Part shown: positions 15,307-61,592 of the stretch, in pieces
Numbering within the stretch: the first letter of the stretch is position 1
How the letters are laid out: every line of letters begins with the position of its first letter
Assembly (NCBI GenBank): GCA_008330645.1
Contig: VLTN01000065.1
Coordinates: forward strand, 1 to 64,000
Reading direction: 5' to 3'
Length of the DNA stretch: 64,000 nt
DNA from: Cafeteria roenbergensis
Taxonomy: Eukaryota > Sar > Bigyra > Bicosoecida > Cafeteriaceae
Made by a program: the position numbers and the translations under genes
The notes under the pieces: model-generated
The model's database searches: none
What the model was told of the DNA's origin: nothing
Seen by the model: only the letters and a program-made list of their open reading frames with translations

Positions 15307-16836
15307 TTAAAACCCGGTGACGCTGTTGCGCCGCATTTGCCGTCGCCGGGTTGAGGGGCCCTCGGCACTTGCCCCGCTGGCGTACCAGAACGCGCCGTGG
15401 CGCTCCGCCTCAGGGTCCTCGTCGGGCTCCGCCAGGTCCTGAGTCGTTTGGGGCGACGCGGGGGGCGGCGGGGACGCAGCTGCACGGGCTCTGGGGGCCT
15501 GGCGCGGCGAGGACGAGGCACCAGCAGCCGGCGCGGTCAGCACGCCGGCGACCGAAGCCACGCGCGAGTGGGTTGACGCCCCGCCCGTCCCACGAGGGGC
15601 GACCAGGCTCCCTGCGACGGGGGTGCGCGGGTGAAAGGGGCGCACGGCCGCCGCTGGCCCCGCCGAGGGCTGCGTGGCCTGGGGCGCGCCGCTGCCCGTG
15701 ACGACAGCGACGGTAGGGGTCGCCGGGCGTCGCGAAAAGAAGGGCGCGGGGCGAGGGGGGCCCGCTACCGCCTGGGGTCCGTCACGCGCCGCCGCGGATA
15801 AGGACCGAGTGTGGTCCAGGCCGAAGCCGGGCAGCGCGGGGGTGCCCGGTCCTCCCCGTGAGGACCCTGATGTCGAGCCAGCGTGGGGGGTGGAGGGCGC
15901 AGGGGACGGCTTGCGGCGAGCGAAGAACGGCTGCGCCCTGCTGGAGCGCGCCGAGGCGGCCGGCGCGTTGCCGCCGGCATCGGGCGTCGGTAGCCCGCTG
16001 CGAAGACCTCGGCCGGCGCCGGCGCCCGAGCCGGAGCTGGCGGGGCTGGGCGGGCGAAGAGCCGGCGGGATGGTGGTGGCGATGCTGAGGCTGGAGGGCC
16101 GGATCGGGGTGGTCGAGCCCCGGGCCATGACCCGGCGAGGCCCTGCGCCCCTGCGGCCCGCTATGCCCCCCGTGGACTTTCCAGAGAGCTTGCTTCCGAT
16201 CCCGCCCTTGGCCTGGCTGCCGCTGCCTGCCGTCCCGGAGCCGTAACGGGCCTCCCAAACGTTGGGGTTGATGCAGCCGCTGGTTGCAGCCACCAGGCCG
16301 GTGACAGAGAGGGTGGGGAGGCACGCGGCGGGGTCCTCGCCGGGCCCAAGGCCGGCCTTGTCGTCGTCGTCGAGGTGGAGGAGGCCGTGCTCGTAGAGCG
16401 TCTTCTCGAACCGCTGGAGCTGGGCGAAGAAGCCGAAGTTGGGCGACACGACCGCCCGCCGCGCCCGGACGTGCGCAAACGAACGTCGCAGGCTCCACCC
16501 CGTGACGCGCATCACGAGCGCGATGACGATGGTGGCGCTTCTCGAGGCCCCGGCCTGACAGTGCACGAACACCGGGACGGGGAAGGGGGCCGGGAGCGGG
16601 GGCGCGCGGGCCCGGGGCGCGCCCGTCGCCTGTCCGTCGCGGCCGTCGCCCAGCGATGACTCCGCACGGCTGCCGTCAACGCTGGCCCACGAGTCTCCCG
16701 CGCTCGCCCGGGCGCCGTCCGCCGGCTCGGGAAGCACGCCCGGGGCTCCGTCGCCGCCAAAGAGCTCGCTGCAGTCAGATGGGGCGGGGGGCGTCTCGCC
16801 CTCGGCGCGAGCGCACACCGCAAAGCCTCGGTCGCT

Positions 16837-16883
<47 letters not shown>

Positions 16884-19800: not shown

Positions 19801-21720
19801 CGTGGCATCGTCCCCGGGGCGACGGCTTCCCGGGGAGGCGTTGGCCCACCGAACGCCGGTCACTCGCTGCGCTGCGTGGCGCGGCGCATCAGCTCTGTCG
19901 GCGGCCGCGAGGGACGCAGAGCCCTCGGCGGGGTCAGACGCGCTCCCCGCTGAGTGCCCGGCCGCTGCCACGAGGTCACTGTCCGCGCCCTCGTCGCAGT
20001 CGGTCGTTGAGTCCCCGGCGGGGGAGGACGCCCTGGCACGCTGCACCGACTTGCCGTCGTGACGGCGCCGCTGCTGTTGCAGCTCGCGGTCCATCTGCAG
20101 CTGGAAGCGGTCGCCAGCGGCGCTGCCAGTGCGCAGTCGACGGGCGAGTGCCGGGAGCGCCCCGCTGCTCGCAGCCGCGTGCGACTCCGGCGAGGGCGGG
20201 CGCCGCCGCCGCAGGGGCTGGGCGGTCAGAGCCGACCGCACGGACCCGCTGTCCCCAGACGCGTGGCAGCCACTCCCGCCGCCAGAGCCGCTGTGGGCCC
20301 ACCTCCCCGAAGACGACGCCGCGAGCGGCAGGGACACCAGCGCGGAGGGCCCCGCATCGACGTCCAGCCCGGCCGCATCGGCCGCGGAGACGTGCACCAG
20401 TGCTGCCCGGAAGCCCTCCCCGTCAGCATCTGTCGCTATAGCTGTAGCTGTAGCTGACACCGCAACTGCGGCGGGGGCAACGGCGGAGTCGGCCCTGGCG
20501 CGGGACCCAAGTCCGCCGGCTCCAGCGTCGCCACCTCCGTCTCCGCCCCCTGGATGCGAGTCTCGTCCTGTCTGCCCCGCCCGCCTGGGCGACTGCGCAG
20601 CGTCGGCGGGGCCCCGCTCCGTCCCTGCCTTGGCCCCTGACCCGTCGACGACGGCTCTGCCCGGCGTTGCTGGCGCCGCCGGCACGCTGTCGGTGGGCCG
20701 ACCGTGGAGCCCGTGGAATGCGCCCGGGGCTGCTGCGGTGACGGGATGGCCGGCCTCGGTCACCGGGGCGGGAACGAGGCCGAAGGGAGTGGTGGCACGG
20801 CCCAGCGACGCCCGCGGTGAGACTGCGCTGGCCCCGGAATGGCCCGCCCCTATCGGCGCAGCCTGTCCGCGTCCCTGGGGCACGGCCGGCGTGGTTGTCA
20901 CTACCACTGCCGCTGCCGCTACCGCCGCCGCGGCTGCGCCCATGGCCACGGACTTGTGCGACCCCGCAGAGGGCGAGCCGGCAACGCCCCAGCCGACGGA
21001 ATCGGGATGCGGATCGCCGCCCCCTTCGTCGAGCAGCTCCTCGGGGAGAGGGGGTGGGAAGAAGCGCAGGCAGGTGCTCGTGGCGCCGCCCGACATTCGC
21101 ACCTGCGCCGCGGAGCTGGGGCCTCTCGTGGCGTTGCGACTGGTTGCCCGCTCCGGAATCGCCGAGTGAGTGGACGCGCGGCCCACGCCCACCAGGGCGC
21201 GCTCCGGGGCCGCCTCCCGCTCCCCGCACTGGAGCTCCAGCCGCCTGAGCGAGGTGCACAACCAAAAGGACGAGGGAATGCACTGCAGCCTGTTGTGGCT
21301 GAGGTTGAGGGCGGCAAGCGCTGGCAGCGCCGTGAAGAGCTCGTCCGGGAGCCACCGGAGGCTGTTGTTGCTGAGGTCGAGCGTGGTGACCACTTCAATG
21401 CTCCAGCCCGCCCTGAGAGGGCGCGGCGGCGAGTCTCCGCCGACGCCTTCCGGCACCTCGGGCCGAGGGATTACCAACGCTGCCAGACTCGCGCCGGCCA
21501 CGACGACCTTTCGAACGGCAGCTACCCCTCGGGCTTCCGAGAGCGTCTGCAGCACGTCCGGGCGGGCATGCCTGCGGCGTCCAGGGGCGGGGAATGCGCG
21601 GGGGGGGGGCGCGCCAGGGCGGTCGCAAGCGCAACGAGGCACTCTCCGTCACAGCGAAGGTGGGTCACCGAGGCGCCCCGCACACGAGCCAGGGGGGGCA
21701 GTGCTCACCCATTCTTCCAT
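15307..21720 (-). CDS. leucine-rich-repeat dual-specificity phosphatase
   Basis: Exon 1 (21720-21709) encodes only MEEW. A GTGAGC intron of 162 bp leads to exon 2 (21546-15307), for 2083 residues. Leucine-rich repeats appear twice: near 21380-21240 (TLDLSNNSLRWLPDELF, LNLSHNRLQCIPSSF) and near 19230-19040 (VRLRLNRNQLRSLPAELADL, VDVEDNPLTRVP). The second set runs directly into a dual-specificity phosphatase: ILPGLYLGDARAARN, then IPIKDAPSE with the likely general acid D907. The signature VHCQAGASRSATIVIA has nucleophile C1667, followed by a normal C-terminal helix region ending near FEKTLYEHGLL. About 760 mostly disordered residues, including a poly-Gly run, lie between D907 and C1667, where about 30 is usual. 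All catalytic residues are present. The target, probably phosphoproteins, is unknown. The C-terminal 430 residues are Ser/Pro/Ala-rich. Confidence 0.85.
16836..16883 (-). repeat. (GCC)n trinucleotide run coding poly-Gly
   Basis: About 16 uninterrupted GCC/CCG units lie inside the phosphatase coding exon. On the coding strand they give a glycine run within the insertion that splits the catalytic domain. Such runs are prone to length change between strains. Confidence 0.9.
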
Positions 21721-42094: not shown

Positions 42095-44911
42095 TCACTG
42101 ACTGGGATGGGCGGCGCCTTGCGAAGCAGCGGCGCGGCGCGTGTGCGCGGTGCTCGACGGCAGCTGCGACGGGCCAGCAGCTGCAGCCAAGCCGGCGCAC
42201 GCGCCGCGGAGCGGGCCAGAATCGACCCTCGAGGCCCTGAGCGACCAGTCCTTGCGCCAGCGCCGCACTCCGGGGTTCCGAAGCAGCGTGAGCGCAAGCG
42301 CCCAGCGGAACCTGGCCTGCCGCCGTCGCCGCAGCGCGCGCCTCGCCTCCGCCCGCTCCAACTCGCCGCCGGCTCCAGGCGCCCGCCCAGGACCAGGGGG
42401 GTGATAGCAGCGACAGGCGTGCCATGCCGACGAGGCACCCCCTCGCTTCCACCCAGGGGGGCTTTCGGTGCTCCACACGTCAGGGCGTCTGGTCCAGGCA
42501 GATGCGCAGGGCTGGGCTGGCGGCGCAGGTGTTTCTGGGCTCGCAGGGGAAGCGTGCAGCGCCACAGTGTCGTTGCCCACAGGTGTGCCTTGCGTGCTGG
42601 CCAGAGCGGCTGCTGCGGACCCAACGAGCGGCGATGGCTCCGAGCTGACCCGTGTCGGGAAGGCTTTTTCTTCCGCCCTGCGCGCGTCCAGCAGGATGGC
42701 GGGGCAAACGTCCTCGCAAAACACTCGCAGCACGGGGTTGTTGTGCCTGTGCTCGGCCAGCAGGGCGCTGATGAACGGCGCATGCACGCTGTCGAACGAA
42801 GAGAGAGTGGGAAACAGCTGCATGTCGGGACGAACCGACACCAGGAGCGCCGTCCCGATTCCAAGCAGCATCCGCGTGGTGGCCACAATGGGCCCCGAGA
42901 ACCCGTTGATGCCGATCGAGGCGAGCTCGTAGAGGGCAAAGCACCGCGGGCGGGACAGCCGCGTTCCTTCCTCGAAGAACGGCCGCACCACGCAGTACCG
43001 CAGGACCAGGTCCACGGCCACGAGAATGAGCGACGTCACCATGGCTGGAAGGGCGCGAACGAGCAGCAGCATGGTCGGCTGCCACGTGACAACAAAGACG
43101 AGCAGCGTGAGCACTGCGCTCAGCAGAATGGAGCTGAACAGAGCATTGTACACCGATGTGGTGACGAGGAGCACGGACAAGTCGTTCACATACCAGCCGG
43201 AGGGAACGTGGAGCTCGCGGAAGCCCTGGGAGGATGCACTGGACGTGGAGAACCTTCCCGGGACGACCCCGACGCCCGTGCTCAAGGCCCCTGCCTCGGT
43301 CAGCTTCGCCGCAAGCACGCGGAACTCGAGCATCTCCTGTCCAGTGGCGGCCCCGACCCCCCTGCCCTGCCTCAGCGCCGCAAGCATCCGCCTGAAGCGG
43401 GGGAGCACGTTGGCCCAGTGCAGGAGCAGGCTCACCAGGACGACAGACGTGGAAAAGTCGTATGCAGCGCGGAGGGCGTCCGCAGCCACGTCGACCGAGG
43501 AAAAGACTGCGTCGAGCCCCCCACCAGGTGCGGAAGCGCTGTTGATCTGGTCGACCAGGCGCTGCGTGTCTTGCAGCACTGCGCACCCACAGTGGATTGC
43601 GTACATTCCAGGCGGGGCCCCGGGGTCGGCCTCCGGGACGCAGCTGCTCATGTTGAGCGGCTGGGGGTCGCCAAGCGTCGACGGGTTCCGGAGCGACGGG
43701 TCCGCGATCACGGCACGGACTGCCTGCGTGGCGTTGGCGCACACCTGCGCCGAAGCACTGGCAGGCCCGCCGACGGCTTCCGCAACGATTGCCGCGTTGT
43801 CAAGAGCGACTGTCAAGGTCTGCTGCACGACCGAGAGCTCTGCTGAGATGCGCTTGAGGCCAGCCACGAGATAGTCGCCCGACTCGCGAAAGACCACGAA
43901 TGCGACGATTGTTGAGAGGATCCCCGCGAAGACGCAAGCTAGCACGCGTTGCGGAAATCGAAAGCCCGCCGGCTGCGAATGGTCAAACTGCCGGAAGACC
44001 TCCGCCCCTGCCCTCCAGCAGCATCCAGCGATGCCACGGGCTGGGACGCAACGTGAATCACTGCGGGGCTTGCCCCAGGTGGCGCTGGTGGCGGATGGCG
44101 CGACGCACCGGCTGCTCGACACTCCAGCCTGCCCTGTTGCCCTGTGCGTCGCCGTGGCGGTCGCAACGGGGACGTCGCCGGCCTGTGCAATCGGGCTTGC
44201 GCTCAGGAGGCCGGCGTGCCCGGGCCGGCCGCGCAGCAGGGCCGCGACGTGGAGCCGGCAGCCCTTGGAGAAGTCCACCTCTGCCTGCCACGGCTGCCGG
44301 CTCCAGCACAGCAGCTCGACCATGTCCCAGGCCGCAATCAGAACGGCCGCGGACATGACTGTCGCGGCGGAGTACAGAGCCGTGAGCGTGGCGGCGCTTC
44401 GCCTGCTCGTGTCCAGCGCCCCGAGCAAGGTCGCAAAGACGGCAAGCGCGGCGCCAGCCAGAGCGAAGCCAATCGCACGCGCCGCAGGCGACTGGTAGGC
44501 GGACGTCGCGGTCAATACCCCCAGCGCGCACACCGCGTAGCACGCAATCGAAGCTTCGTACCAAAATGGCGAGGCTGCCTCCGTCCCGTCCCCGGCAGGC
44601 TGCTGCTCCCCGCCGGCGGCGCCGCCGCCGCCGCTCTGCAGCAACCGTGCGGCCACTGGCGCAGAAGTTGTGGCGTTGGGCTGCGCCCTCTGCGTCTCTA
44701 TGTCAGCCCCAAGCGTGCCAAAGTACACGCTGGCGAGCAGGCCGCACAGGACCGGGAAGGCCAGGCGAGACGAAGCCCGGTCTGCCACCAGGTCCACGAG
44801 CTGCGGCAGCGCACTGTCAATGCGGCCCAGAATCGAGCTGCAAGAGCAGCTCGCGCGGCAGCCTGGCATCTGAGCGACTGCAGGCGAGGGGGCGCGCGAT
44901 CCCTGGGCCAT
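42095..44911 (-). CDS. STRA6-like retinol-uptake receptor homologue
   Basis: 938 residues, many membrane segments. STRA6 in animals binds retinol-binding protein and moves retinol across the plasma membrane. The first in-frame ATG is at 44911. N-terminal segments lie in FPVLCGLLASVYFG and through the region 44560-44310; a central cluster is near 43460-42870. The C-terminal cytosolic part carries the family ending: SVRPDMQLFPTLSSFDSVHAP, then LLAEHRHNNPVLRVFCED, and after a variable linker RWALALTLLRNPGVRRWRK (42320-42260). From memory, human STRA6 has the parallel blocks LSLLPPRAATLDPGY, HPAMTAFC and RWGLAYTLLHNP. An extracellular insertion of about 180 residues with Cys (43860-43500) is unusual. 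Ligand cannot be inferred; a protist may transport another lipophile. Confidence 0.82.
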   Translation of the reverse strand: MAQGSRAPSPAVAQMPGCRASCSCSSILGRIDSALPQLVDLVADRASSRLAFPVLCGLLASVYFGTLGADIETQRAQPNATTSAPVAARLLQSGGGGAAGGEQQPAGDGTEAASPFWYEASIACYAVCALGVLTATSAYQSPAARAIGFALAGAALAVFATLLGALDTSRRSAATLTALYSAATVMSAAVLIAAWDMVELLCWSRQPWQAEVDFSKGCRLHVAALLRGRPGHAGLLSASPIAQAGDVPVATATATHRATGQAGVSSSRCVAPSATSATWGKPRSDSRCVPARGIAGCCWRAGAEVFRQFDHSQPAGFRFPQRVLACVFAGILSTIVAFVVFRESGDYLVAGLKRISAELSVVQQTLTVALDNAAIVAEAVGGPASASAQVCANATQAVRAVIADPSLRNPSTLGDPQPLNMSSCVPEADPGAPPGMYAIHCGCAVLQDTQRLVDQINSASAPGGGLDAVFSSVDVAADALRAAYDFSTSVVLVSLLLHWANVLPRFRRMLAALRQGRGVGAATGQEMLEFRVLAAKLTEAGALSTGVGVVPGRFSTSSASSQGFRELHVPSGWYVNDLSVLLVTTSVYNALFSSILLSAVLTLLVFVVTWQPTMLLLVRALPAMVTSLILVAVDLVLRYCVVRPFFEEGTRLSRPRCFALYELASIGINGFSGPIVATTRMLLGIGTALLVSVRPDMQLFPTLSSFDSVHAPFISALLAEHRHNNPVLRVFCEDVCPAILLDARRAEEKAFPTRVSSEPSPLVGSAAAALASTQGTPVGNDTVALHASPASPETPAPPAQPCASAWTRRPDVWSTESPPGWKRGGASSAWHACRCYHPPGPGRAPGAGGELERAEARRALRRRRQARFRWALALTLLRNPGVRRWRKDWSLRASRVDSGPLRGACAGLAAAAGPSQLPSSTAHTRRAAASQGAAHPSQ

Positions 44912-45226: not shown

Positions 45227-48200
45227 TCACGCCAAGGCCGTCATTCGCGAGCAAGACGCCCCCTCAAACCCGGCAAAGCACTGGCACCTGCCAAATTGTC
45301 TATCGCACTGTCCCCGGCCGGAGCACTCGATCGCCTCGAATCGCGTGTGCGGCGGGCGGAAGAGCGAGGCGGCGCTGGCCACCGCACTGATGCGAAAGAC
45401 GTAGAGGCCGGGGTCGGGATGCAAGGAGCTGAACCGGAGGAGGATTCCGTTGCCGACGGGCACGACGAGCGGGCGCATGCCGGGACCAGGGGCGGATGCA
45501 AGGTCCGAGTCCGCGGACAGCGTGCCCGTTGGCCCCGTCTCCTCATCAAGCGCCGAAGATGGCGACCTGGTGGAGACCCTGTAGGTGCTGTACGGCGAAC
45601 CTGTCTCAACATGAACCATTAGCGTTGTGTCGAACGCCACCGTTGGCGAGCTGGGCTGCGAGAGCGGACGAAACGCCGTCGCTGCATCGACGGAAACGTG
45701 CCCCGGCGTCCCAGTCGTTCCCGAGGTGTCTATCGCAAGCATCTGGCGAACCCTGGGGACGCATCCGGCCTCACCGCAGCCAAGCGGGAGGCTTGCGATG
45801 GAAACCCTGTCTCCGCTATTGCTCGGGGACGTGAGAGTCACAAGCCACGCCCGGTCCCGCTGGCCAGCCGCCACTCGACGAACGCTGGCGGACGGCACCA
45901 GCTGGTCGGGCAGTCCCACAAGCGCTCTGCGGATCGCTTCCGACGTCTCAGGCCCGGTGCCGGCCCAAAGTGCCGAAACAGGAGTCGTGACAAAGGTCCC
46001 GAGCTCTTTGTCCGTCACGCGGAATGCGATCTCGTCGTGCTCGATCGGAACCGCAGCGCCCTCTGTCCACAGCGTCAGGCGAATCTCCCAGACGGCACCG
46101 TGCAGCTCTGGCCGGCAGGGGACCTCTCCGTCGCCGCAGTGAGTTACGGGGTCGTCACCGAGCGGGCAGCCGCGAAGCGAGCAGTCCGGGCCTTGGTAGC
46201 CCGGATCGCACCGACACACGGTCAGCCGTGGGGCCTGAAATTCGCGACGGAATCGGTGCAGCTCGTCCGCTTCACCAGGACTGGCGCCGGGAGCGACTCC
46301 GCCGTCGCTACTCGGAGCGGGGAGGAGCGCCATGGGCACACATGTTCCTTGGGCGGAGCACCCCCGCGGGCAGTTCAGGCGCTGACAGGCAGCGCCTTCG
46401 AACCCGTCAAAGCAATGGCACTTCCCGGAGTCTCTATTGCACACCCCCTGGGCCGAGCATTCTGCCCACTCCAGAAGTGGGACGGTGGCGTCCCCGTTTG
46501 GCCAGGCCTGACTCTTTGGGCAAGTTCGCAGGCTGCAGTCTCGTCCAGTCCAACCCTGGAAGCAGTTGCACGCCCCGTGTGCCAGACACTCGCCGTTGCC
46601 GCTGCAGAGTGCGGGGCAGCCACCCCCGGCGTGCCTGGATACGAGGGGAGGCCGGATCAAGGGTGCGAACGGGACGATGGCGGGCACGGCAAGCGAAAAG
46701 TGGTCGACCAAGCACTGCACGAATCCGCCCTCCCCGGCAGAGTACGCGCACGATCTGGCAGGAGCCGGCGGGCCGTAGGCTCCTGGGCCGTCGGTTTCGC
46801 CCTGAGCGTGTCCAAGCTCACTGGCAAGCAAGATCACTGCAGAGGTGTCGGGTGGCAGCTGGCCAATGTACAGTCGCAGCGCCAGAGGTGGGTCGAACGT
46901 TGCGCCCGCAGGGCCCAGGAGCACGGCGGCATCAACAAGCACATTTGCCGCCTTGCTGTCTGAGGCTTCAAAGCTCCGGAGCGCCGAAGCAGCAGCGAAA
47001 CCACCCCTGACTCTGATACTCGTGATCTCGCCTCCGCCGCTCCCTTGCAAAGCAGTGACGCCAGCTGCAGCGGTGAGCTCCACTGCACCCGCCCCCTCGG
47101 GGTCGCCTCCTGGAGCCGGGAGCCGCACTCGAACGCGTTCTCCTCCCGCGGAGGCTGGCGACAAGGGAATGTCGGGAAACACGCAGACGGGCCGGGGAAG
47201 CGACGCAAACGGGTTGTAGTTCCCGTGCGGGTGCGAGACGGCGTGCCAGGCGGCAGACGGCACGGTACACCCCGCGACCTCCACTTCGATCGACACGTAG
47301 GCGATCGCTACGCTGTTGGCTCGGTCACGAGCAATGACACGAAGCTGCAGAGTGCTGGCACGGGGCGATTGGGGCGAAGGCGATTGAAGCCGGAGCGGCG
47401 GCCCGTAGAGCGGGGTGCCGGAGAAGACCAGCTCGCCCCGGAACGGCAGCTTGCTCGGCGACACGACGCTCAGAGTGTAGTTGAACAAGTTGGCGGACAG
47501 TTCGTCGAGCGACTCGTATGCCGAAATCGCCGGGTTCAGCCAGGACACCTCGTAGCCAAGCGAGTCCATGCCTGGCTGCCCATCGGCCTGATCTGCCAGG
47601 TCGCGGTCTTGAAAAATATCCTGGACCGGAAGCCGAACTGTCGAGAACTCGCCGTGCACCATGCGGCGCTGGGCCACGGACATGATGTCGTTTGGAGCCG
47701 CCAACAGCAACGGCTGCTCCTGCACGTCGAGCACTTCAACGATGAGCGAGGCCGTGGCGTGCGCGCCACTGAGTGCATCAGCCCGAACGGTGAGCACGGC
47801 AGGGTTGGGCAGTGCCTCGTCTTCGTAGTCCAAGGGCTGCCGCCGATCGGACGGGCCGACAGCGATGCGGAGAACAGACGGGTCTGGCAGCACGAACCTG
47901 GTCTCCGGGCTGATTCCGCTCGGAACGAGGGAAAACGCCACTGGGTCCCCAGCTGCAAGCATCGCGGCTGCGTTTGAAAAATTGCCCAAATCGGCGAGGA
48001 CATAGTCGCCGGGGCTGGCTGTCTCGTTGACAGAGAGTGTCGCAATCTGGCTCGTAAACTCTGGGCGAAGCAGGGGCACGGAAGGGACGCAAACGCGGCG
48101 CCCCGGAACGGCGGTGAAGCCTTCAGAGCAGTCCACATGGCATGCCTGGCTGTCCGGGCGAAGCAGCATCCCCTTCGGGCAGGCAAGCTCGCACGTTCCG

Positions 48201-51200
48201 TTTGCCAGGTTCGGCGCGAATCCGAACTCGCAGCTGCTCACGCAGTCCGCCGTCGTTGCCAAGTCGAACGAGGCCACCTTGCCTCGCAGAAACATGCCTT
48301 CTCCGCAGCGGTGAGCGCACGCGCGCGCCACAAAGTCCGCCCGGAGGTGCGGCGGACACGTTGCCGAGCACGTCCTGGTGGCGGGCGTGAAAAACCATGC
48401 ATCGCCGCACACATGCCGGCACGTCCTGGTGATCTCGTCCGGAACCGTGCCCTCCGGGCACCGGACCGTGCACAATAGAGTGCTGTTCGCAGCAGGCGGC
48501 AAGTACGTTCCGGGTCCGCAGAGGGGCGCGCAGGTCCGAACGCCATCCTCCCGAGCCCGCTGGCCCGGCGGGCATGCAGACGCGGCGACGCAGCTTGCAG
48601 CCGAGCTGGGGTCGACGGTGCGCCCCAGGGGCAGCACAGTCCCTGCTCGGCAAAGCTGCGCACACGCACGGGTGTGGCTGTCAGCGATTTGACCCCGCGG
48701 ACAGGCTTCGGCGGCCGGCAAGCACGAACTGGCCTCGGCGGCAGCGCCAAGTGGCAGCGCCTCGTGCTCTCGGCAGACCGGATCGCACACGCGGCTGGTG
48801 CTGTTCGCGCGAGTGCCCCGCGGGCATGACGTCACGCACGCAGCGGCGGCTCCTGGGTGGCGGAGATAGGTCCCCGCCGCGGCCGGGCACCGAAACTCGC
48901 ACGTCCGTGTCGTCGCGTTGTGAACCAGCCCAGCGGGGCACGGGAGCCGGTGGCAGTCGCCAAGCCCCGCCTCAGCAGCCTCGTGGCCGTCGTCCGGCAG
49001 CAGTGCGAAGCCAGGCGGGCATGCGAGGTCACATGTGCCGGAGCTAATGTTGCCCACAACTCCCCAAGGTTCAGCTTCTCGGCAGGACTCGACACACCTT
49101 CCAGAATCTTTCCCCGTCAGGAGCGGGAGGAATGTCCCATTCGAACAAGCTGGGGTGCATGCCCTCAGCTGCGGGTGCGCCGAAAGGCCTCGCGGGCAAA
49201 ACGCCTGGCATGCTCCGCCGCTGGCGCTTTCGAGGAACACACTTCCCGGAGGGCATATTGCTTCGCACGCCTTGGTCCAGTTGCCCGGCACAGTGCCGGC
49301 TTTGCAGACTTCGGCGCACCCTGCTGGCAGGGTGGGACTTGCCAGCCCACCGCGGGCTACCTCCCAAGGCACTGAAGACGGCGCGTCTGCTTGAAGAAAC
49401 GTGCCCTCCGCGGGACAGGTAGGGGAGCACAGCCTGCCTGCGGCATCGGCGTACGTCCCCCACGGGCACCAGTCAACGCAGCGGCTGGAGTTGCCGCTTG
49501 TGAGGAGCAGGTGGCCCTCGACGGGGCACAACACGGGCAAGCACGACCGATGGGGGCTCCAAGGTGCCTGGCCTGGCGGACAAGCGTCCGCACAGACGAG
49601 GTCCATGGTTGTATTCTGGCCCAGCTCGTCGACCTCCAGCGAGTCCCAGCTGGCTCCGACTTCGAGGGACGCGCTGGCGTTGGAGGAGCTGTTTTGGTGC
49701 CAAGAGCCGCCGCCAGTTTCATTCGTACCTCTTGAGCTGTTGCTGCTGGCGGGAAACGGCAGCAAGGCTCCATGCGGGCACACGTAGCCGCAGGTATGGG
49801 CGGCGTGGTCCGGCACCAAGCCGAACGGGCACGCGCTGACGCACTGCCGCCAGGATCCACTCGCACCTGCCGTTTCAGGCAGCAAATATGTCCCGTTTGT
49901 GCACACAGGCTGGCACTCCCGCGTGGTTTCGTTGACCTCGTAGCCGAAGGGGCACCCGACGTCGCACCCTCCTCGGATGCCCGCTACAGCTCCGCCAGGC
50001 TGCAGAGCTTCGCCCGGGCCGCAGATGGGTGAGCACACGCGGCGCCTGGAGTCGCTGCGGAGACCCATTGAAACCTCCGAGCAGTTGGAGGTGCACTCGA
50101 AGTCCGACGGGTCGAAGGCGGTGCTGCCAGGCACCAGGAAGCTGGCGTTCGCGCAGGCATGCACGCAGACGCCCTGGAGGTCGATGAATCCAAAGGGACA
50201 TGGCGCTGGCGTGCAGGAGGCCACTTGGGCCGAAGCGAATGGGGGAAGCCTGAGGGAGAGCTCCACTGCTTCTGGTGTGCCTCTGCACACAGAGCGACAG
50301 GCTCTGGTGGCCCCGTCCTCAACGAATCCGGGGAGCGACGCGCAGTCTGTTCTGCAGAAACCTGCGAACGGGTCCGCAAACGTGCCTGCGGGGCATGTCG
50401 GGGTGCACGTGCCGTTTCGGGTCTCTGCGCGGGTGCCGGGAGGGCAAATCGCGACGCAGGCAGCTGCCGAGGTGTCCGGAGCGCCCGGCGGCAAAAACGT
50501 CCCGGCTTTGCAAACCAGCTCGCAAGCTCCGGTTGTGGAGTTCCCAAAGAACCCCCGACCGTCTGCACCTTCGGCCTCGCAGGCCGGGACGCAGATTTCC
50601 GATGCATTTGCCGTCGCGTCTGCGCGACCAAGCAGGTACTTGCCCTGCTCCTGGCAAACTCGGGAGCAAGAACGTGTGGCAGCGTCGGGAACGCTGCCCC
50701 TGGGGCACGCGGGGACGCAGATGAGGGGGTCGTTCGCATTCCAAGGCGCCCAGGGTGGCAAGAACGTGCCCTCGCGGCACACCGGCTGGCATGACTGCGT
50801 CGCCATGTCTGGAGCCAGTCCCCGCGCAGCCTCGGCGCACGTGGGCACGCAGGCCGCTTCCGCCACCAGAGGCGGGGCGACGAAAAAGCGACCCGGCTCC
50901 TGGCACGCAAGCCGACAGGTGCGGGTGTCGTTGTCGCGCACAAGCCCTGGGAGGGAGCTGCAATCGGAGACGCAGCTTGACAGCTGTGGCGGCGTGGCAA
51001 CCCCAAAGGAGTCGATGACGGGGAAGAAGCTGCCATCCCAGCAAAGAGGCTCGCACGTCCGACCAAGATCCGAGCGAACGGTGCCGACAGGGCAGGACAG
51101 GACGCACGAGGCTGCAGGGTTTGCGGCGGCCTCGTCCGGGTCAGCGCCCGGCACAAGAAGCAACGGTTCTGGGCAGGCTGGCTCGCATCTTGAGGGGCTG

Positions 51201-53583
51201 GTCTTCCCAACGAGGCCGTGCTGTGTATCGCCGCAGCTTGCGACGCAGTCCGAGGCGTTCGCCGGGTCCGGCCAGCGAAGAAACAGCCCGAGGGCGCAGC
51301 TGGCTGGCAGGCACGCCTGGAAGTCTGCAGCCACCTGGCCTGCTGGACAAGCTCCGGGCACGCAGCTCCAGGGGTCCGGCGACGACAAGGCCGACGCGGG
51401 CAGTCGCTGGCCTGGCGAGCACACTGGATCGCACCCTCCGGTGACGTCGTTGCCCACAGTCCCAATGTCGGAGCACGAGTCGACACAGCCCGAGTCATTG
51501 CGCGAGAGGAACCTTCCAGGTTCGCACTGGCGGACGCACACCGTTCCCGACGCGCGGCTCGGTGCAACGGAACCGTGCGGGCAGGTCGCGAGGCAGTCGT
51601 GGCCGGCTGGCGAAGGCTTGGGAATGCCCAAGGGCAGATATTGGCCCGGCGGCAAACAAGCTTGGACGCATGCGCCGGACCGGGAGTCTTCCGTGAACCC
51701 ATAGCCAACAGCAGAGCTGCAAGAGTCAACGCAGACCGGCGCCGCCGACCCAGCCTGATTTAGCTGCGTTGCATTGCATCGCAGGTGCGCTGCGCCGTCA
51801 GTTGACAGGTTGACCAGAAGAGTGACGTTCGGGTCCAGCCGCGCAGCCGCCGCCGCTCCGTAGCACTCCAACGTCGGCGCCGGAGAGCCGTGGTGCTCCA
51901 GGCTGCAGTTTTGCAGCACATCTTCAGCTGCAATCGAGGCGTTGCCATCCACGCCCATCGCACCCTCGGAAGTCACGTTGCAGACAAAGCGAAGCCCGGG
52001 GGCGGCGGAGCTCTCCTGGGCACAAACTAGAAGTGCACCCTCTTGGCAGCTGGGCGGTGGGGCTTCGAACAGATCCGCGCCGCAGGCGCGAATGCAGGCG
52101 TGCCTTTCAGCGACTGGACGAGTGCCCAACGGGCAGGAAGCCTCGCACCCGGGAGGGAGAGGCCCAATCCCAGGGGACCAGAGCGTGCCGGCTGGGCACC
52201 GGGGCCTGCAGGTGCCAGAGAGGACGTCGGACCAGAACCCCACCTCGTGCTCCTCGCAGCTGGTCACGCACTGGCCTCCAGCGCCGCCCAAGCCAGCAAG
52301 CCAAAAGGACCCCGGCTCGCAGAGCACTTCCTCTTCTTGCAGCAGCCTCCTCGCGTCTCCCGCCTTCACACCCTGTAGCTCCTCCCGCTTTGCCGGAGCT
52401 GGGCCAGCAGCGCCAGCCAGGGTCACCAGCGCCGAACGCCCAGCCTCGTCCAGCTCGTCCAGCCACTGCGCTTTCCATTCAACAAGCCATTTGCCGAAGT
52501 TGGATCGGGTTGGCTGCAGCTGGGCTGCACGCGGCACCTCAGGCAAGGCTGCTCCTGGGTCTCGGCCAAAGGGCAAGAGCTCCGGCTGCAAGCCGAAGTG
52601 GCGCCACAGCGCTTGTAGCGCGCTCGCAGCGGACCTTGCAACCGCCCGCCCAGGCCTATCTCGAAATCTCATCAGTTCGCGCTCGAGCTCTGGCCGACAG
52701 GCCACGAGCGCAAGAACGTCGCCTGGCGCCGGCGGCCCTGACACGCCCTGCGGAACACGGCATGTTCCTGCCCAAAACGTCGGAAGCCTGTCGTGTGCGT
52801 TGGCATCAAGGGCGTCGGCGGGCGCCCCGCAAATAGATTCCCCATTGGGTGCGACCCCCGCAACGAAAGCAAAGTCGGCGTCTGCGACTCCCGACTCCTC
52901 TTCGTCGGTCAGGCCCGTGCAGCCTCCAAGTCGAAACTCGCCGCTCGAAGTTGGAGAGCAGACTTGTGGCAGTTCCACCAGCTCCGCAGGCAGCGCGACC
53001 TCGGTTCGCTTGACGCGACAAGACGGAACGATGGCTGCGTGCTTGCATGCACCGTCAAATAGGGCTGCGAACGGGTGCGCAGGGCCGAATCGCCATTCCC
53101 CGCCTGCGTCGCAGCGTCCGGGCACCGAAATTCGAGCCTGGGCCGGCGGCCGTCCGACCAAGCCAAACGCCCGCGACATCACTCGAGCGGCCTCCGCCAC
53201 TGCGGCGAAAGCCAGACGGTCAGCCACTCCGGCAGAGTCTGCGATGGAATCATCAACGGGGAGCGGGTCCTCGGGTCGTTGCGCACAAAAACCTGTGGTT
53301 CTCCCCAGCTTCCCACCCCCTCCCCCGCCTTGACCGAGTCTGCTGGCCCGGGCATTCATCCGGCGGGCGAGCAAGTCGATGGCAAGGCGCACGGCTTTCG
53401 AGCTGGAGGCCGCTCTTTCGCTGGCCCGGCCCGCAGCAGCGGCGCTCACTCACCAGAGGGCGCCGCGAGGACCTTCAGTCGCAGGGGCTGGCTTTGCTCC
53501 TGGGCATGCCCCGCCTTGCGGGAGCTCTGGACAGTGCGTGCCAGCACACACACAAGGAGGGAAAGCAGCACGACGAGCCGCAT
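45227..53583 (-). CDS. giant secreted cysteine-rich / cadherin-like / EGF-module protein
   Basis: Exon 1 (53583-53454) encodes a signal peptide (MRLVVLLSLLVCVLARTVQS). A 161-bp GTGAGT intron leads to exon 2 (53292-45227), total 2731 residues. Order: N-terminal region of about 330 residues with a few Cys; roughly thirty Cys-rich repeats (about 370-1770) of the form C-x-P-x-C...G-x-F/Y-L-P...C-V-x-x-C-P-x-G, like ephrin-receptor/GCC2-GCC3 modules; one cadherin-like repeat near 48070-47690 (LDYEDEALPNPAVLTV, then VEVLDVQEQP) and a second beta-rich domain (47480-47280); then EGF modules (46620-46200) with CSGNGECLAHGACNCF and FDGFEGAACQRLNC, a beta domain, and a last EGF (ECSGRGQCDRQFGRCQCF). No membrane anchor is seen, so probably an extracellular matrix or cell-surface component. 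Confidence 0.88.
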
Positions 53584-54117
53584 CACTGCAGCGTTGCCGG
53601 AACGCCCACAGCGAGTCCCGAATACACAGCGGAGTTGAGGGCTTTTCGCAATGGAGCTGGCGGGCACTGAGGCCCCGCTGCAAGCCCGCGTTGCGGAGGG
53701 CGGGGCTGAGGCTCGCCGCCAGGAACGGGGTTTCGCACGCTCCGAGGGCGCTCTTCGCGGAATCGCGCGTGCAGGCAATGCCGGGGCCAGCACTTCCAGC
53801 CCAACCCAGGATTAAAGGCGGGGCGGGGGATGCCGGCCAGGCGAGGCGGTGGAAGGTGCGTTTTCCCAACCCAAACGTCACGTGTTCCCCCGGCAGAGCC
53901 GTCTTGCAACAACGCCAATCTGCAGCACCCCAGCCTCCGAGCAAGCCCCGCGCGACGCAGGGGGACAGCACTGCCCGCACCTGCTCGGAGGCAGCGTGGG
54001 GCGCGGCCCAATTCCCCGCTTTCCGCGACGCGCAGCCCGGGCAGAGTGTGGCAGGCCTCGGGGCGCACGGGCTCGCCGCGCAGTTCCGCCGGGTTCGCCC
54101 TGCCCCAGACAGCACGG
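53584..54117. promoter_or_regulatory. divergent promoter region of the two EGF paralogues
   Basis: 534 bp between opposing start codons of two related secreted proteins. Shared control is likely. The plus-strand frame is open further upstream (from 53830) but the signal peptide fixes the start at 54118. No element was recognised. Confidence 0.45.
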
Positions 54118-55512
54118 ATGTTGCTGCAGCTGAGTATCCTCGGTGCCCTCGGGGTCCTTGCTTCGGCGTCCTGCCCCGGCATGTGCAGCGCGCAAGGCAA
54201 GTGCGGCGAGAACGACGTGTGCGAGTGCGACCGCGGGTTCTTCGGCGCGGACTGCTCGTTGCGGCGGTGTCCGTCTGGACCGGCCATAGGGGACGTGGTG
54301 ACCGGCGACCTGAACCACGACGGCGTGGCGGCTGCTGGCACCTATGTCGACGTGCAGTGGTCGTCGCTCCAGGTGCCCGAGCGCATGCCGGCACCGGACG
54401 GCAGTTCGCCGTCCAGCACGGCTCCCGGGCATGACCGCGCGGGCCTGACCGCTCGGCGGGGCGTGTCACATTTTCCAGCGGAGTGCTCCGGGCGAGGCTC
54501 TTGCGACTACTCGTTGGGCCAGTGTCTGTGCTCCGATGGATTCGAGGGCAGCGCCTGCCAGCGGGTGAGCTGCCCCTCGGGCTGCAGCAAGCACGGAGAG
54601 TGCCGCACAGCAGCAGAGGTGGCCAAGCTCGCGCTGAACCGGAGGCGCGTCAGCTTTTTCGCGGGCGCAGAACTCACCCGCGGCGTGCGGGAGCCCTTGA
54701 GCGAGCCGCTCCGGCTGTGGTCGGCCAACGCGTCGCGAGTCTGCGTTTGCGACCCCGGGTTCCGTGGCCACGACTGCTCGCTCAGGGCTTGCCCGCGCGG
54801 GCCGGATCCGATGGCGACGGCGCAGCGCCACTGCGGCGACGAAGGCTGCGTGGACGAGGTGCAGCGATTCGAGATTGCACCAGACGAGCCAACCCTGTTC
54901 CGGTTCGCGCTGGCCTCGTGGGAGGGCCAAGACCGCCATGCGCTGGTTTCGCTCCACACCGGAGCCAACGGCGGCCAGGGGGGCGCGGCGAACGCAGCCC
55001 TGATCGAGCACGCGCTCGGGCTCGGCATAGCGGACCACGAGCTCGAGCGGATTGCCGTGACGGGCGCAGGAAACCCTGGCTCGACCCAGGAGTTTCAGGT
55101 CACGTTCGTCAACAACCCCGGGAACCACCCGCTGTTGAGCATCGAGCATGTCGCCGGCCCCGCCCGCGTCGTCCCGGGGTCCCTGGCTGCGCTCCGAGAC
55201 GGCACCAGAGCTGAGCTAGAGTGTAGCGGCCGCGGCATTTGCGACGAGCTGTCGGGGCTGTGCAGGTGCTTTGAAGGGTTCGGGCGTGAGGACTGCGCGT
55301 CGCAGATGTCACCAACCGCGCTGCTCGAGCTCAAGCGCGCGGAGCAGGCTCGTCAGAAGCGGAAAGACAGGCGCAAGCTTGAGCGCGCCAGGAGGGAGGC
55401 GCCCGATGGGCATGCTCGACTCCAGGCCGAAGTGGATGCGCTCTCTGGTGACGCGGGCGGCGAGCGCCTGGAGCAGGCCAGCTTTGTCGAGTCTTGGGGA
55501 GCGGAGGAGTGA
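54118..55512 (+). CDS. secreted EGF-module protein, paralogue of the giant's C-terminus
   Basis: 464 residues starting with a signal peptide (MLLQLSILGALGVLASASC). Module order: EGF (CPGMCSAQGKCGENDVCECD, GADCSLRRCP), EGF (ECSGRGSCDYSLGQCLCSDG, SACQRVSCPSGC), EGF (CVCDPGFRGHDCSLRACPRG), a beta-rich domain of about 130 residues (FEIAPDEPTLFRF to VVPGSLAALRDG), a final EGF (ECSGRGICDELSGLCRCFEG) and a basic coiled tail (ALLELKRAEQARQKRKDRR). The same order of modules, with matching spacing, ends the giant protein on the other side. It lacks that protein's Cys-rich repeats and cadherin part. The start was chosen at the signal peptide. Function is unknown; extracellular. Confidence 0.88.
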   Translation: MLLQLSILGALGVLASASCPGMCSAQGKCGENDVCECDRGFFGADCSLRRCPSGPAIGDVVTGDLNHDGVAAAGTYVDVQWSSLQVPERMPAPDGSSPSSTAPGHDRAGLTARRGVSHFPAECSGRGSCDYSLGQCLCSDGFEGSACQRVSCPSGCSKHGECRTAAEVAKLALNRRRVSFFAGAELTRGVREPLSEPLRLWSANASRVCVCDPGFRGHDCSLRACPRGPDPMATAQRHCGDEGCVDEVQRFEIAPDEPTLFRFALASWEGQDRHALVSLHTGANGGQGGAANAALIEHALGLGIADHELERIAVTGAGNPGSTQEFQVTFVNNPGNHPLLSIEHVAGPARVVPGSLAALRDGTRAELECSGRGICDELSGLCRCFEGFGREDCASQMSPTALLELKRAEQARQKRKDRRKLERARREAPDGHARLQAEVDALSGDAGGERLEQASFVESWGAEE

Positions 55513-55746: not shown

Positions 55747-58700
55747 TCAGTGGCCGCCGGCGCCGTTTCCCGCGCGGAGCCCGCGGCTGATGTGCGCCAC
55801 GTGATCAACGATGATGGCTGCCACGCCATGCTCCTGCTGGAGCTTGACGCATTCGATCTCGTTGTTGCGCTTGCCGAACGTGGCGAGAACGAGTCCTGCT
55901 CCGCGAACGGCGTCCATGAGCACCGGCGCCTCCAGCAGCGGCTTGCTGTGGCTCACGATGCCGAAGAGGCCGACAGACCGCGCGAAGCGGATGGCCTCGC
56001 GAAGGCTGTTGCGGCGCGGGTCCGCGTCGACCTGGGTGCCGGCGTCCGTGAGCAGCAGCACGGGGTAGGTGCCCTGCTTGCGGTGGAGCAGCAGGCACAC
56101 GTCCGGGTCAAACGACGAGAAGATGACGCCGCGGGATCCGGCGTTGGCGAAGGTGCAGTCGAGCACGCGGTCGACGTAGGTGTTGCGGTCCGGAACGATG
56201 AGGCGGCCCTCGGCCACCTCGGCGGGGGACGGGTACTTCATCTCGATGTTGAAGCCGCAGCTGACGGGCACGCGCTGGAAGGTCTCGGCGAGGGAGGTGA
56301 GCTTGTCGCGCAGGCCGTAGTAGAGGGAGCTGCGGTTGCGGTGGCGAACGGGGTCCAGGCCCATCGCCTTGAGCGTGCGCTCGCTGGTGTGGCCCGAGGC
56401 ATGCGGCGCAGGGGGCGCCGTGCGGTCGGCGGCCTGAAGGTCCGGCGAGGACGACGCGCCGACGAGGGCGGGGCGAGGGGCCGGGGCCGGGGCGCCCGTT
56501 GAGGAGGCGTCGGACGCGGCGGTGAGCGGGGAGCTCGGGCGCCCGACCATGGCGGGGGTGGCCGCCGGGGACGCCGCGCCCGTCACCGCGCCGGCGCCGG
56601 CGCTGCTGCCGTTGCTGAGGCGGGAGCGGTGGCGAGGGCGGGCGAGGAAGTCGTGGTCGGTGAGCGGGGCGACGCGGTTGAGCTGGTCGGCGGTCATGTG
56701 CGACACCGGCACGCGGATGCCTCCGGGGAGCCGCACGCCAAAGTCGTGGTAGACGACGGGCACGCCGTCGGACGACAGCTGCACGTCGAACTCGACGTAC
56801 TCGGCCCCGAGGGAGGCCGCCGTGACGAAGGACAAGACGGTGTTCTCCATCACGTGGGTGCGCCAGCGGCGGGTGCCGGCCGGGCCAAGCACCTCCGCGG
56901 CGTTGTCCGCCCCGGCGCCGCGGTGGCCGACGACCCGGGTCTGGCGCCAGTAGGCGCGGACCGCGTTGCCGGTCATCGCCGAGGGCACGGCGCCGAGGGG
57001 CGGCGTGTACGGCCGCGCGAGCACGAACCGCACCGTGACGGTGCCCATCACCGCGCCGCCTGCCGCCAGCAGGGGCGCGCTGGCCTCGCCCTCGAGCCGC
57101 AGGCCGCAGGAGGAGTCCCAGCAGTGCTGCGCAAGCACCGCATGGGCCTCCCGGATGCCCTGGGCGCCCGGCCGGTCGGCGGGAGGGGGCGGCAGGCCGT
57201 CGCACAGCAGCGCGATGGCTCTGCCGACGTCAACCGGACGCATACCCTCGATGACGTCATCGGGCACGCGGGGCGCGGCTCCGCCCGTGCCGAGCAGCAG
57301 GGCGGGCGGGAAGACGGCCCGGCCCACCACCACGCCGACGCCCGAGGAGACGCTGACCGCGAGGCCGAGCCCGAAGGGGCCTCGGCCCCTGGAGGAGAAG
57401 GTGTGCGACGTGTTGAGCTCCGGGTCGTCGGCGGGCAGCGCCGTCTCCCAGGTGGCGGGGGCGCCGTCGGCGGCCTCCTCGGCCGCGGCCGCGTCGGAGG
57501 CGGTGCGGTGGTGGCCGCGGGCCGCGCGAGCACCCGCCGCGCGGCGGGCCGTGAACCGCGCCGGCGATCTCTCGCTGGCGCCGGCGCCAGCGCCTTCGGC
57601 CCTGCCGCCGTCCGGGCTTGGGAAGCCCGGGGCGCCCGCCGCCCGCGTGCCGGCGCCCGGGGAGTCGGACTGAAGGGCCAGCGGCGGGGGCGTCCAGGGC
57701 TCGTCGGCCGCCTTGAGCGCGGCGTCCCAGCCGGACCCACGGCGCCGCGTGCGGGCAGCCGCGCCGCCCGAGGAGGACTCGCTTCTGCCGCGGCGGGCCC
57801 CCGCCAGCGGGCTGAGCACGGGGCTGGGAAGGGTCTCCGCGTGGTCGGCGCCCTCGGCCCGGCCGTGGGCCTTGCCGTCGTCGTCGATGTCCAGGCCGGC
57901 TTCGTCCTCGCTGAGGTCGCTGTTGCCGGTGTCGCTGGGGGCGTCGATCGGGTGGGTGGCGAGCTCGGCGGCCGCTGACGAGGCCGAGGCCTCGGCTGCC
58001 AGGGCCTCGTCGTCGTCGCTGTCGGCGGCCGCTGACGCCCTCAGGCCAGCGGCGCGGAGCAGGCGAGGGCCGTGGCGGCGCCGGAGCGGGAGCGTCACCA
58101 TGACGGTCTCCCCAGCTGCGGTTTCGAGGGCCTCCGGGTCGAGGTCGACGTCGGCCGGGGCTGCCTGCGCCGACGCGCTCGAGAGCCCCCCTGCCGCCGC
58201 GGCAACCGCAGCCCTGTGCTGGGCGGCGCGCTCCAGGCCGACGGACCAGGGTGCGAGCTCCAGGCGCATCCGCCGGGACGGAAGCCGCTGCCCAGGCGGC
58301 GGCTGCAGGCTGACCGCGGGGCGGGGGCGTTGGGTGCCCTTTGGCCCGTCGCCCGCGCCGCCGAGCATGACGTGGAGCTCCCACTCGTCGCTCTGCATCA
58401 CGGGGTGTCCCTCCTCCACGCGCTCGGCGGCGGCGCTGGCGTCGCTGGCTCCGCCCTCGGAGCCGGCCGTGGCTGCGTGCGTCGCCGCCTGCGCGGCGGC
58501 GTTGGGCTCGTCCCCGCTGCTCGGCTCCGCGTCCCCGCTGCCGGAGCTCGCCGGCGGCGGCGAGGCCCTGGATGCGCCCGCGTGGCCCGACGCCGCCCGG
58601 CGGCTGGCCGTCACGCCGGACCGGCTGAAGCGGATGGGCTCGTCCTCCTCGTCGTCGTAGCCGCCCACGCTTCGAACGCTCTTGGGCGCGCGGGCGGCGG

Positions 58701-61592
58701 ACTGCGACTGGGGGCCGAGGCCGGGGCCGGGGCCGGCCGAGGCTGGCGCGGGCGGAGCCGGGGGCGGCGGCGACGGCGACGGCGACGACGACGGGGCGGC
58801 AGCGGTCTCGGAGGCGGTGCGCGGCGCTTTGGCGACGTCCGCGTCGCAGGCATTAACGCCCTGCGCGGCGGCCGCGCGGCCGGCGGCCGACGCCTCGGCC
58901 AAGGCCCCAGAGGGGCGCTCGGAGGCGGCGCGGCCCGGCGCGGTGGCGGCGGAGGCCTCGTCCCGCCCGCAGGCGCAGGCGATGGCGCCGGCCAGCTCCG
59001 GGTGGAGGCCGCGGAGGCGAGTGGCTTCCCGCAGCGCAGCCGCGACGCGGCGGCGGCCCGAGAAGAGGGCGAGGGCGAGGGCGGACCACCCGGCGCAGTC
59101 CTTGGCGTCGGGGTCGGCGCCCGCGCGCCCGAGCACCGCGCAGCAGTCGGGGCTGTTGGCCTCCACCGCCTCGTGCAGCAGCGGCACCCACAGGTCGGGG
59201 CGGAGGAGGGAGTCTGCCGGGGGCGCGGGGGCCGCCTCGGGGCTGGCGGCAGGGGCTGGCGCGGGGGCGGGGGCAGGGGCGTCGATGCTGAGGGCGAGGG
59301 CGGGCGACGGGGTGCCGCTCTCGGCGCCGGTTGCAGAGCCGTCCGGCGCGGCGCCCGCCCCGCTGGGGATGGTCGCGGGGAGGTCGGCGGGCGGGCTGGC
59401 GCCAAGCGCGGGGGCGGCCACGTTGGGGAGGCGGGCGCATAGGGCCCAGGCGGGCGTGCGCTTCAGCATCATGGCCAACACGCGGGCGCGGCCGCCCCGG
59501 GCGGCGAGGTGGAGGGGCGTCTCCGAGTAGGCCGAGGCGGCGGCCGGGTCGGCCCCGCCGCGGAGGAGGCGGCGCACGCAGCGCGCGTAGCCGCGGGAGG
59601 CCGCCTCGTGGAGGGCGGTGGTCGCCGCCGCGCCGACGCGGTCGTCCACGGCGCAGGCGCCGCCGCACGCGAGCAGGGCGGCCACGCACTCGTGGGAGCC
59701 CGCCTGCGCCGCGGCGTGGAGGCAGGTCCAGTGGAGGCCGGCGGTGCCGCCTCGGCGGAGCAGGCCGTGCACGGCCCAGACGGCGGTCCACACGTCGTTG
59801 GGGCAGGGACGGGCGTCGGTGCCGCTGGAGGCGCCGGTGCGGGAGGCGGAGACGGTGGGCGGGCGGCGGTTAGAGGGCGAGGGCGAGGGCGAGGGCACGG
59901 TGGGGAGGCCGTGGCGGGAAGTCCTCGCCTCCACGGCCTTGCTGGCGGCGTGCAGGAGCGTCTGGAGGCAGCTGGGCCGGCCGGCCACCGCGGCGAGGTA
60001 CGCGGCCGAGTGGCCGTTGCGGTCGCACGCCGTGAGCGCTTCCAGGACGGAGTCAGCGGCAGCGGCGCGGCGGAGGAGGACGCTGACGCAGCGGGCGTCG
60101 CCCGCCAGGACGGCGTGGTGCAGCGGCGTTCGGCGGGAGAATGACGCGACGGAAGCCCTGCCCGTCGCGTCGGCTCCGGCCTCCAGAAGGGCGTCCACGA
60201 CCCCGCGCCAGCCGCCGCGCACCGCCACCTCGAGCGGCGACCGCTCGGCCGCGTCCGGGCTCTCCGCAGGCACGCCCAGCCGCAGGAGGACGCGGACGGA
60301 GTCGGCGTCGCCCGAGCGGACCGCGGCGTGAAGCAGGGGCGCCCCGAGCGAGAGCAGCGTGGCGGCCGGCATGCCCGAGGAGCGGAGAAGGAAGGCCATT
60401 CGGCGCCCGTCCTCGGCCCGGATCGCCGCGCGGATGGCTTCGTCGGCGGACGTGGTGGCCAGAGTCATGGGGCGGGGAGCGCTGCCCACGGCCCAGGCAG
60501 CGTCCGAGCTGGAGCCGCTGCCCGTGCTCGCCCGCCACGCAGACAGGCTGCGGACTCGGGCGCTGGCGGAGTCCGCCTCCGCGGTCGCGCGCCGCGCGGC
60601 ATCGTCCAGAAGCGCGGTCGCGCTCTGGCAGGCGGACACCGCCGCGTCCACCTCGGTGCAATGCCAGAAGCGGCGGCACGGCAGCTGGCGAGTGGTCAGG
60701 TCCGAAAACCGGTCCGAGCTCGTCCGCTTGTCGAGCTTCTTGGCGGCCTTGCGGAACCCCTCGCTGTTCACGCTTGCAAAGTCGCGGAGGTCCTGCAGCC
60801 TGCGGGCGGCCGGGGGAGCGCGAGCGCCAGGGCGCACGGGCGGGACCGTCAGCCGCAGTCGGGGCGCACGGGCGGGACCGTCAGCCGCAGTCGGGGCGCA
60901 CGGGCGGGACCGTCAGCCGCAGTTGCATCTGGAAAGGTTGCGTGACCGTGATGGCCTGCGCCTTCCTGCGGCGGCCGCTTGCGCAGCGGAGCGGGAAGCT
61001 CCGGCGCCCGGCAGCTGCCCTGCAAGCCAGCGCGCGCGCCGACCTGCTCGATCCCGCCCGGGGGGAGCGCTGGGCGCGCGGGCGCGAGGCGGGCGGAGGT
61101 GCCGCTGCCAGATTCGGAGTGCGAGCGGGGCGGACGAAAGGGGACTCACTTGCGCACGATGGACGCGAGCGCCTCCGAAAGCGAGGCCAGGCCGCTGACG
61201 CAGGCGATGTCCGACCCCGCATAGTCGGCTGCCCGCTGGACGAGCAAGTCCGTGTGGTCAAGCGCGTCTTGGAACTCGGGCTTGAAAAACGCATCGACGC
61301 GGTCGGCCTCGGCCAAGAAGGCCCGCACGAAGTCGTCGGTCGACGACAGGCCCACCTCGACCCGCCGAATCTCGTCCTTGAGCACTGAAGGCACACGGTG
61401 GCAGCGGGGCAGCGGAGGGGGAGGCAATTCGCAGGCAAGGTCACTTGCTTCCTGTCAGGGGGAGCGCGCCCCAGCGCGGCGGCAAAAGTCAGTGCAGCAG
61501 CATCCCGGTCGCCGGCGCTCACGCTTGTACCGGAGGTAGCCCTCGCCCCAGACAAAGACTTTCAAGAAGCGAAGCTTCTGCCCGAACTTCAT
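55747..61592 (-). CDS. SPX-ankyrin-glycerophosphodiester phosphodiesterase (GDE1/Pho81-like)
   Basis: Exons 61592-61523, 61384-61150 and 60799-55747; donors GTGAGC and GTGAGT; 1785 residues. The first join gives YKLLKDEIRRVE, the second SIVRKLQDLRDF. SPX domain: MKFGQKLRFLKVF, FFKPEFQDALD and NSEGFRKAAKKLDK, the Lys-rich surface that binds inositol pyrophosphates. Ankyrin repeats (from about 60440 to 59000) include LLHAAVRSGDADSVRVLL and TPLHHAVLAGDARCVSVLL. A long disordered region follows, then a GDPD domain: VVGHRGAGADN, ENTVLSFVTAA, VEFDVQLSSDGVPVVYHDF, and NIEMKYPSP, giving the catalytic His, Glu, Asp and His set. Known relatives cleave glycerophosphocholine (Gde1) or regulate phosphate starvation (Pho81). 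With catalytic residues intact, an active enzyme is likely. Confidence 0.93.
60832..60923. repeat. 32-bp tandem repeat in GDPD intron 2
   Basis: Nearly three perfect copies of a 32-bp unit (gcgcacgggcgggaccgtca plus 12 more bases) lie just upstream of the exon 3 acceptor at 60800. The copies are identical over the aligned parts, implying recent duplication. The repeats are inside the intron, so the protein is unaffected. Confidence 0.9.

Follow-up and report, generated by a model that had tools for sequence, protein, structure and literature searches.

A probable divergent member of the STRA6 family, with a counterpart of the calmodulin-binding peptide CaMBP2, in a Cafeteria roenbergensis contig

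STRA6 and its described relatives

The closest described systems are vertebrate STRA6, considered here through the human protein and the zebrafish protein of structure 5SY1, with nine transmembrane (TM) helices and one intramembrane (IM) helix, and RBPR2 (STRA6-like), the second vertebrate RBP4 receptor, which we take to be a multi-pass membrane protein of the same family. The RBP-docking motif of STRA6, Y336/G340/G342, lies in the TM6-TM7 loop, and RBPR2 carries an SYL site for RBP4 binding (PMC9992173). Zebrafish STRA6 is described as having a conserved and disease-linked Arg-Asp pair, R511-D539, and as modelled without residues 575-597, a cytosolic loop; cholesterol is suggested there to occupy STRA6 binding sites and the outer cleft of the zebrafish protein, and the role of calmodulin in STRA6 is called enigmatic (PMC5954442). 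The peptide CaMBP2 is defined as making the most extensive calmodulin contact (PMC7154012).

Regarding distribution, STRA6 has been called animal-specific (PMC5977736) and absent in invertebrates (PMC5133064); since a rotifer protein carries PF14752 (PMC12220480), the family is wider than the latter statement. Among the open full-text papers listed for STRA6 in protists, other unicellular organisms, algae or amphioxus, or for RBP_receptor or PF14752, no title names a member of the STRA6 family from a protist, while automatic UniProt/InterPro annotations may exist.

The gene and its coding signal

The window analysed is a stretch of 64,000 nucleotides of contig VLTN01000065.1. On its minus strand, which also carries every feature of the gene given below, a single open frame starts with the ATG at 44911, ends with the TGA at 42095-42097 and encodes, over 938 codons (42095-44911), a multi-pass membrane protein of 938 residues with likeness to STRA6 (PF14752). 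Along with the Pfam match, the gene is supported by the codon-position GC of the stop-to-stop frame, which is gene-like (0.68/0.59/0.79). The GC content reaches 71.5% in the window and 68.6% in the gene, and the long plus-strand frames that overlap the latter would accordingly be expected by chance.

The codon signature is absent at residues ~261-320, i.e. the cytosolic TM5-TM6 loop by homology (43952-44131), and again from residue ~741 onward. These stretches are possibly introns or disordered linkers, the loop itself being either a linker or an intron, and since introns are possible the true length of the protein may fall short of 938 residues. The second stretch includes the CaMBP2 block described below, which may have its own exon.

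Membership in the STRA6 family

Searched against Pfam, the whole protein matched RBP_receptor (PF14752) at E 6.3e-8 and 32.2 bits, above the gathering cut-off of 25, and this was the only family listed for it at E up to 10, a listing from which program filters remove the bulk of matches beyond about 0.1. Two stretches, in order, make up this match. The first, profile positions 397-550 on residues 596-749 (42665-43126), spans TM8, TM9, the intramembrane helix and the juxtamembrane loop; the second lies at the extreme C-terminus, where the tail fragment alone aligned residues 858-887 with profile positions 575-604 of 605, a weak match below the cut-off (15.7 bits, E 0.0062). Taken alone, residues 550-938 gave 35.6 bits (E 6e-9) and the core, residues 550-760, matched at 6e-7, and zebrafish STRA6, as a positive control, scored 901.7 bits over positions 1-604. 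The coverage of the full profile (1-605) is limited to positions 397-550 and 575-604; a whole-profile match is typical of the vertebrate members and is not demanded by the curated PF14752 cut-off.

In PMC9333335, RBP_receptor matches confined to positions beyond 400 were discarded as non-TM, a warning by which the score alone is not to be relied on; the present match spans positions 397-604, though the protein is clearly multi-pass. The same judgement on this region of the model could be invoked to regard the match as due to chance or to the composition of a hydrophobic protein, as could the weakness of a vertebrate-only profile built from two sequences, zebrafish STRA6 (5SY1) and a human STRA6 sequence that is, in all comparisons, a provisional one: on the full protein it scored 3.1 bits, a value exceeded by 4 of 1000 shuffles and thus not separated from them. 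Such an effect, already disfavoured, appears highly improbable, as the two stretches match in order, as none of four control copies of the core 550-760 (one reversed, three locally shuffled) matched RBP_receptor, and as the CaMBP2 block, which is not a membrane helix, still ranks first by a wide margin among 127,864 six-frame positions of the window (53.5, the next scoring 28.5).

With the vertebrate-only profile weak, the case for homology stands on the Pfam model and on the ordered blocks. Direct comparison of residues 300-760 gave a score of 64 with the provisional human sequence, where local shuffles averaged 41.6 (sd 5.9), 1 of 300 reached 64 and the reversed sequence scored 39, and a score of 61 with zebrafish STRA6, where 3 of 300 local shuffles reached 61 and the reversed sequence scored 43. 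Judged from its sequence, the protein is almost certainly a STRA6-family homologue, in keeping with the Pfam check suggested for the first-pass annotation, which returned RBP_receptor above cut-off and listed no SLC44 family.

In the SLC44 choline transporter-like proteins, too, TM helices are numerous and an extracellular loop bears Cys residues. They differ from the present protein in that no SLC44 family came up for it in the Pfam listing at E <=10, and an SLC44 identity was dropped.

Two AlphaFold2 models made without an alignment reached pLDDT 42.0 and 43.6, too poor for fold comparison, and Foldseek with the first of these low-confidence models returned 52 matches, none at E <=0.001 and with no STRA6 among the 50 listed. 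A STRA6 match was not found with the protein among PDB sequences. Within bacterial, archaeal and viral contigs, whole-protein searches gave 21 and 5 pattern matches and mixed-alignment searches of prokaryote and virus collections gave 38, 80 and 38, none of either kind being confirmed, with little bearing on protists.

The C-terminal part, from TM8 to CaMBP2

Seven STRA6 blocks, each made from the provisional human and the zebrafish sequences, were scanned ungapped over the six-frame translation of the window, with some 127,800 positions per block. For three of the seven the highest score in the window falls where it is expected, and for a fourth the expected place scores second highest. The block aligned to TM8-TM9, residues 602-647 (42971-43108), is first of 127,726 six-frame positions (16.0 vs 14.0); the one aligned to the horizontal IM helix, residues 654-701 (42809-42952), comes second (14.0 vs 14.5 elsewhere); the juxtamembrane loop with the NPVLRVFC block (the latter at residues 725-732), residues 705-732 (42716-42799), is first (33.5 vs 22.5). 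Identities in these three blocks amount to 6 to 12 over 28 to 48 positions, human and zebrafish sharing 19 to 21.

Within this part, the aligned zebrafish partner of R680 (codon from 42874) is R511 and that of D707 (codon from 42793) is D539; in the 5SY1 chain numbering these partners lie within IWRVV and AFDPGY, respectively. The Arg-Asp pair between the IM helix and the juxtamembrane loop is kept in the sequence, and a salt bridge between R680 and D707 is predicted.

The remaining block, residues 865-887 (42251-42319), is the counterpart of CaMBP2, as supported by the tail Pfam match, the block scan and the identities, which number 12/23 with the provisional human sequence and 10/23 with zebrafish, where zebrafish and human share 13/23. 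The first-pass annotation had quoted two blocks in this frame, NPVLRVFC and RWALALTLLRNP, the latter beginning at residue 869; both are present and each ranks first in the six-frame scan, and since the calmodulin peptide is defined at this place in PMC7154012, the second of them corresponds to CaMBP2.

It had also been proposed that these blocks follow human STRA6 in order and spacing. The order holds, and the first stretch is near gap-free, R680 and D707 being 27 residues apart where the provisional human sequence and zebrafish have 28. The spacing does not extend to the linker between the two blocks, which from C732 to W870 counts 137 residues, where the provisional human sequence has 53 and zebrafish 5SY1 has 45. 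The greater part of it, residues 733-864 (42320-42715), is a low-complexity linker and a possible intron that, by alignment, would fall at about the place where the cytosolic loop is missing from the 5SY1 model.

The N-terminal region and the enlarged loop

A Kyte-Doolittle scan delineated nine hydrophobic segments at >=1.48; in a hydropathy scan applied alike to all three proteins, segments number 11 in this protein, 11 in the provisional human STRA6 and 12 in zebrafish. About eight TM helices and the IM helix can be assigned, one N-terminal TM helix of the STRA6 set being not identified. Residues 1-595 alone had no RBP_receptor match in the Pfam search, and the six-frame scan did not locate the TM6, TM7 and RBP-motif blocks where they would be expected; the TM6 block scored highest inside this very frame but at the wrong place (residues 133-164).

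The absent Pfam match and the misplaced TM6 and TM7 blocks would both be expected if descent from STRA6 were limited to a C-terminal module, from TM8 to CaMBP2, fused to an unrelated N-terminal membrane part and an extracellular Cys domain. Such a fusion is nevertheless rather unlikely, given that the hydrophobic segments and loops follow broadly a STRA6-like series, that FRFP at residue 317 was aligned with the FRFP of the zebrafish TM6 start in all three MAFFT modes tried, and that the N-terminal part has no other Pfam family above cut-off, its sub-threshold matches being to the unrelated T6SS_Tsi2-like (E 0.2 and 0.057) and DUF5693 (E 0.85) families.

The TM6-TM7 loop was placed by the order of hydropathy segments, by the FRFP start of TM6 and by counting back from TM8. 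Flanked by the hydrophobic segments 323-341 and 486-504, an enlarged loop, residues 342-485 (43457-43888), stands where the RBP-binding loop would be; it has ~144 residues vs ~44 in the provisional human STRA6 (~3x), with cysteines C391, C424, C441 and C443 and sequons at N393 and N420. As regards the Cys-containing extracellular insertion of the first-pass annotation, the Cys-bearing stretch is indeed there, and its extracellular side is inferred from homology.

The name of retinol receptor is not supported, with residues 1-595 unmatched by RBP_receptor and the vertebrate RBP-docking motif not recognisable in the frame, where the RBP-motif block had no match among its best six in the window. 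A true retinol receptor, taking retinol in the vertebrate manner from prey or from an environmental lipocalin-like carrier, could claim the RBP_receptor homology itself and the YLVAG at residue 347, which resembles the YLLAG core of the vertebrate RBP site and is possibly a remnant of the motif. This YLVAG, however, lacks the second Gly and stands 6 positions past the end of the TM6 segment, where the provisional human sequence has 16 and zebrafish has 20, within a loop about three times the human length; together with the missing block match, this makes a vertebrate-style retinol receptor distinctly improbable. Neither was the SYL site described for RBPR2 seen in the present protein. The frame is better filed as a divergent STRA6-like family member than as an RBP receptor.

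A possible calmodulin-regulated lipid exchanger

This divergent STRA6-like protein resembles vertebrate STRA6 by its Pfam family, the order of TM8-TM9, IM helix and juxtamembrane loop, the Arg-Asp pair and CaMBP2, as well as by a variable cytosolic linker ahead of the latter; it differs by the unrecognisable RBP motif, the enlarged loop with its cysteines and sequons, the longer linker before CaMBP2, the N-terminal TM helix that was not identified and the stretch 1-595 left unmatched by the Pfam model. Taken together, it is rather probable that this divergent member of the family has a lipid-binding cleft and acts as a calmodulin-regulated mover of a hydrophobic lipid independently of RBP. Considered separately and by analogy with vertebrate STRA6, lipid transfer by the protein is somewhat favoured, and its control by calmodulin may be held plausible to the same degree.

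By analogy with zebrafish STRA6, two protomers would dimerise around paired intramembrane helices and so form the lipid-binding cleft. A hydrophobic molecule, such as a sterol, a retinoid, a carotenoid or another isoprenoid, would enter it from outside and, once bound, would pass down its own gradient to the inner leaflet or the cytosol. In view of the cholesterol suggested in PMC5954442, a sterol is in our view as likely a ligand as a retinoid. Calmodulin, clamped on the C-terminal helix, would hold or gate the intramembrane helices depending on Ca2+. At the outer face, the longer Cys-bearing and probably glycosylated loop would replace the RBP-docking loop; it may form a lid over the cleft or receive another carrier, and any docking of a carrier would have to use it.

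A protein, probably from outside animals, in which the calmodulin peptide and the core of the lipid cleft are kept but an RBP site is not recognisable, sets a possible old function of the family apart from the vertebrate one, and this separation makes it testable which lipid is carried and what calmodulin is for. There are hints that lipid transfer preceded vitamin A delivery. More tentatively, and held with less than even confidence, STRA6 might not have originated in animals: non-animal eukaryotes would have had a calmodulin-clamped lipid exchanger with an intramembrane cleft, with RBP docking acquired later and the calmodulin grip as the most conserved part.

Neighbouring genes

Pfam matches were obtained in 20 other open reading frames of the window, including Atg4-like, RMI1-like, KDM8-type JmjC, SOUL, GH31, EGF_Teneurin and ankyrin-GDPD families, of which the Atg4-like, RMI1-like and KDM8-type JmjC neighbours are eukaryotic genes; no tRNA and no Rfam family was found in the window. 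A prokaryotic or animal origin was accordingly set aside, the GC content and the long open frames looking unlike those of animals, and base composition and architecture make a protist plausible. The Atg4-type peptidase (C54) frame, 5876-8350 on the plus strand, has a 276-position profile spread over 510 residues and would therefore have large inserts or unspliced introns. Hemerythrin matches at 12675-14323 (minus strand) are split over two overlapping frames in different phases, both just below cut-off, which makes introns possible in the window, a frameshift or two copies being the alternatives. Further along, a 2113-residue frame at 15310-21648 (minus strand) combines leucine-rich repeats with a dual-specificity phosphatase domain.

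Beside the STRA6-like gene, Teneurin-like EGF repeats occur in two frames, 45230-53449 on the minus strand (2740 residues) and 53710-55509 on the plus strand (600 residues), whose products are perhaps large proteins, secreted or at the cell surface. Beyond them, the frame at 55750-60912 (minus strand) has ankyrin repeats and a C-terminal glycerophosphodiester phosphodiesterase, together with a sub-threshold SPX match, and resembles the SPX-Ank-GDPD architecture of fungi. A perfect 32-base tandem repeat of 2.9 copies, at 60830-60923, lies at the start of this ankyrin-GDPD frame.
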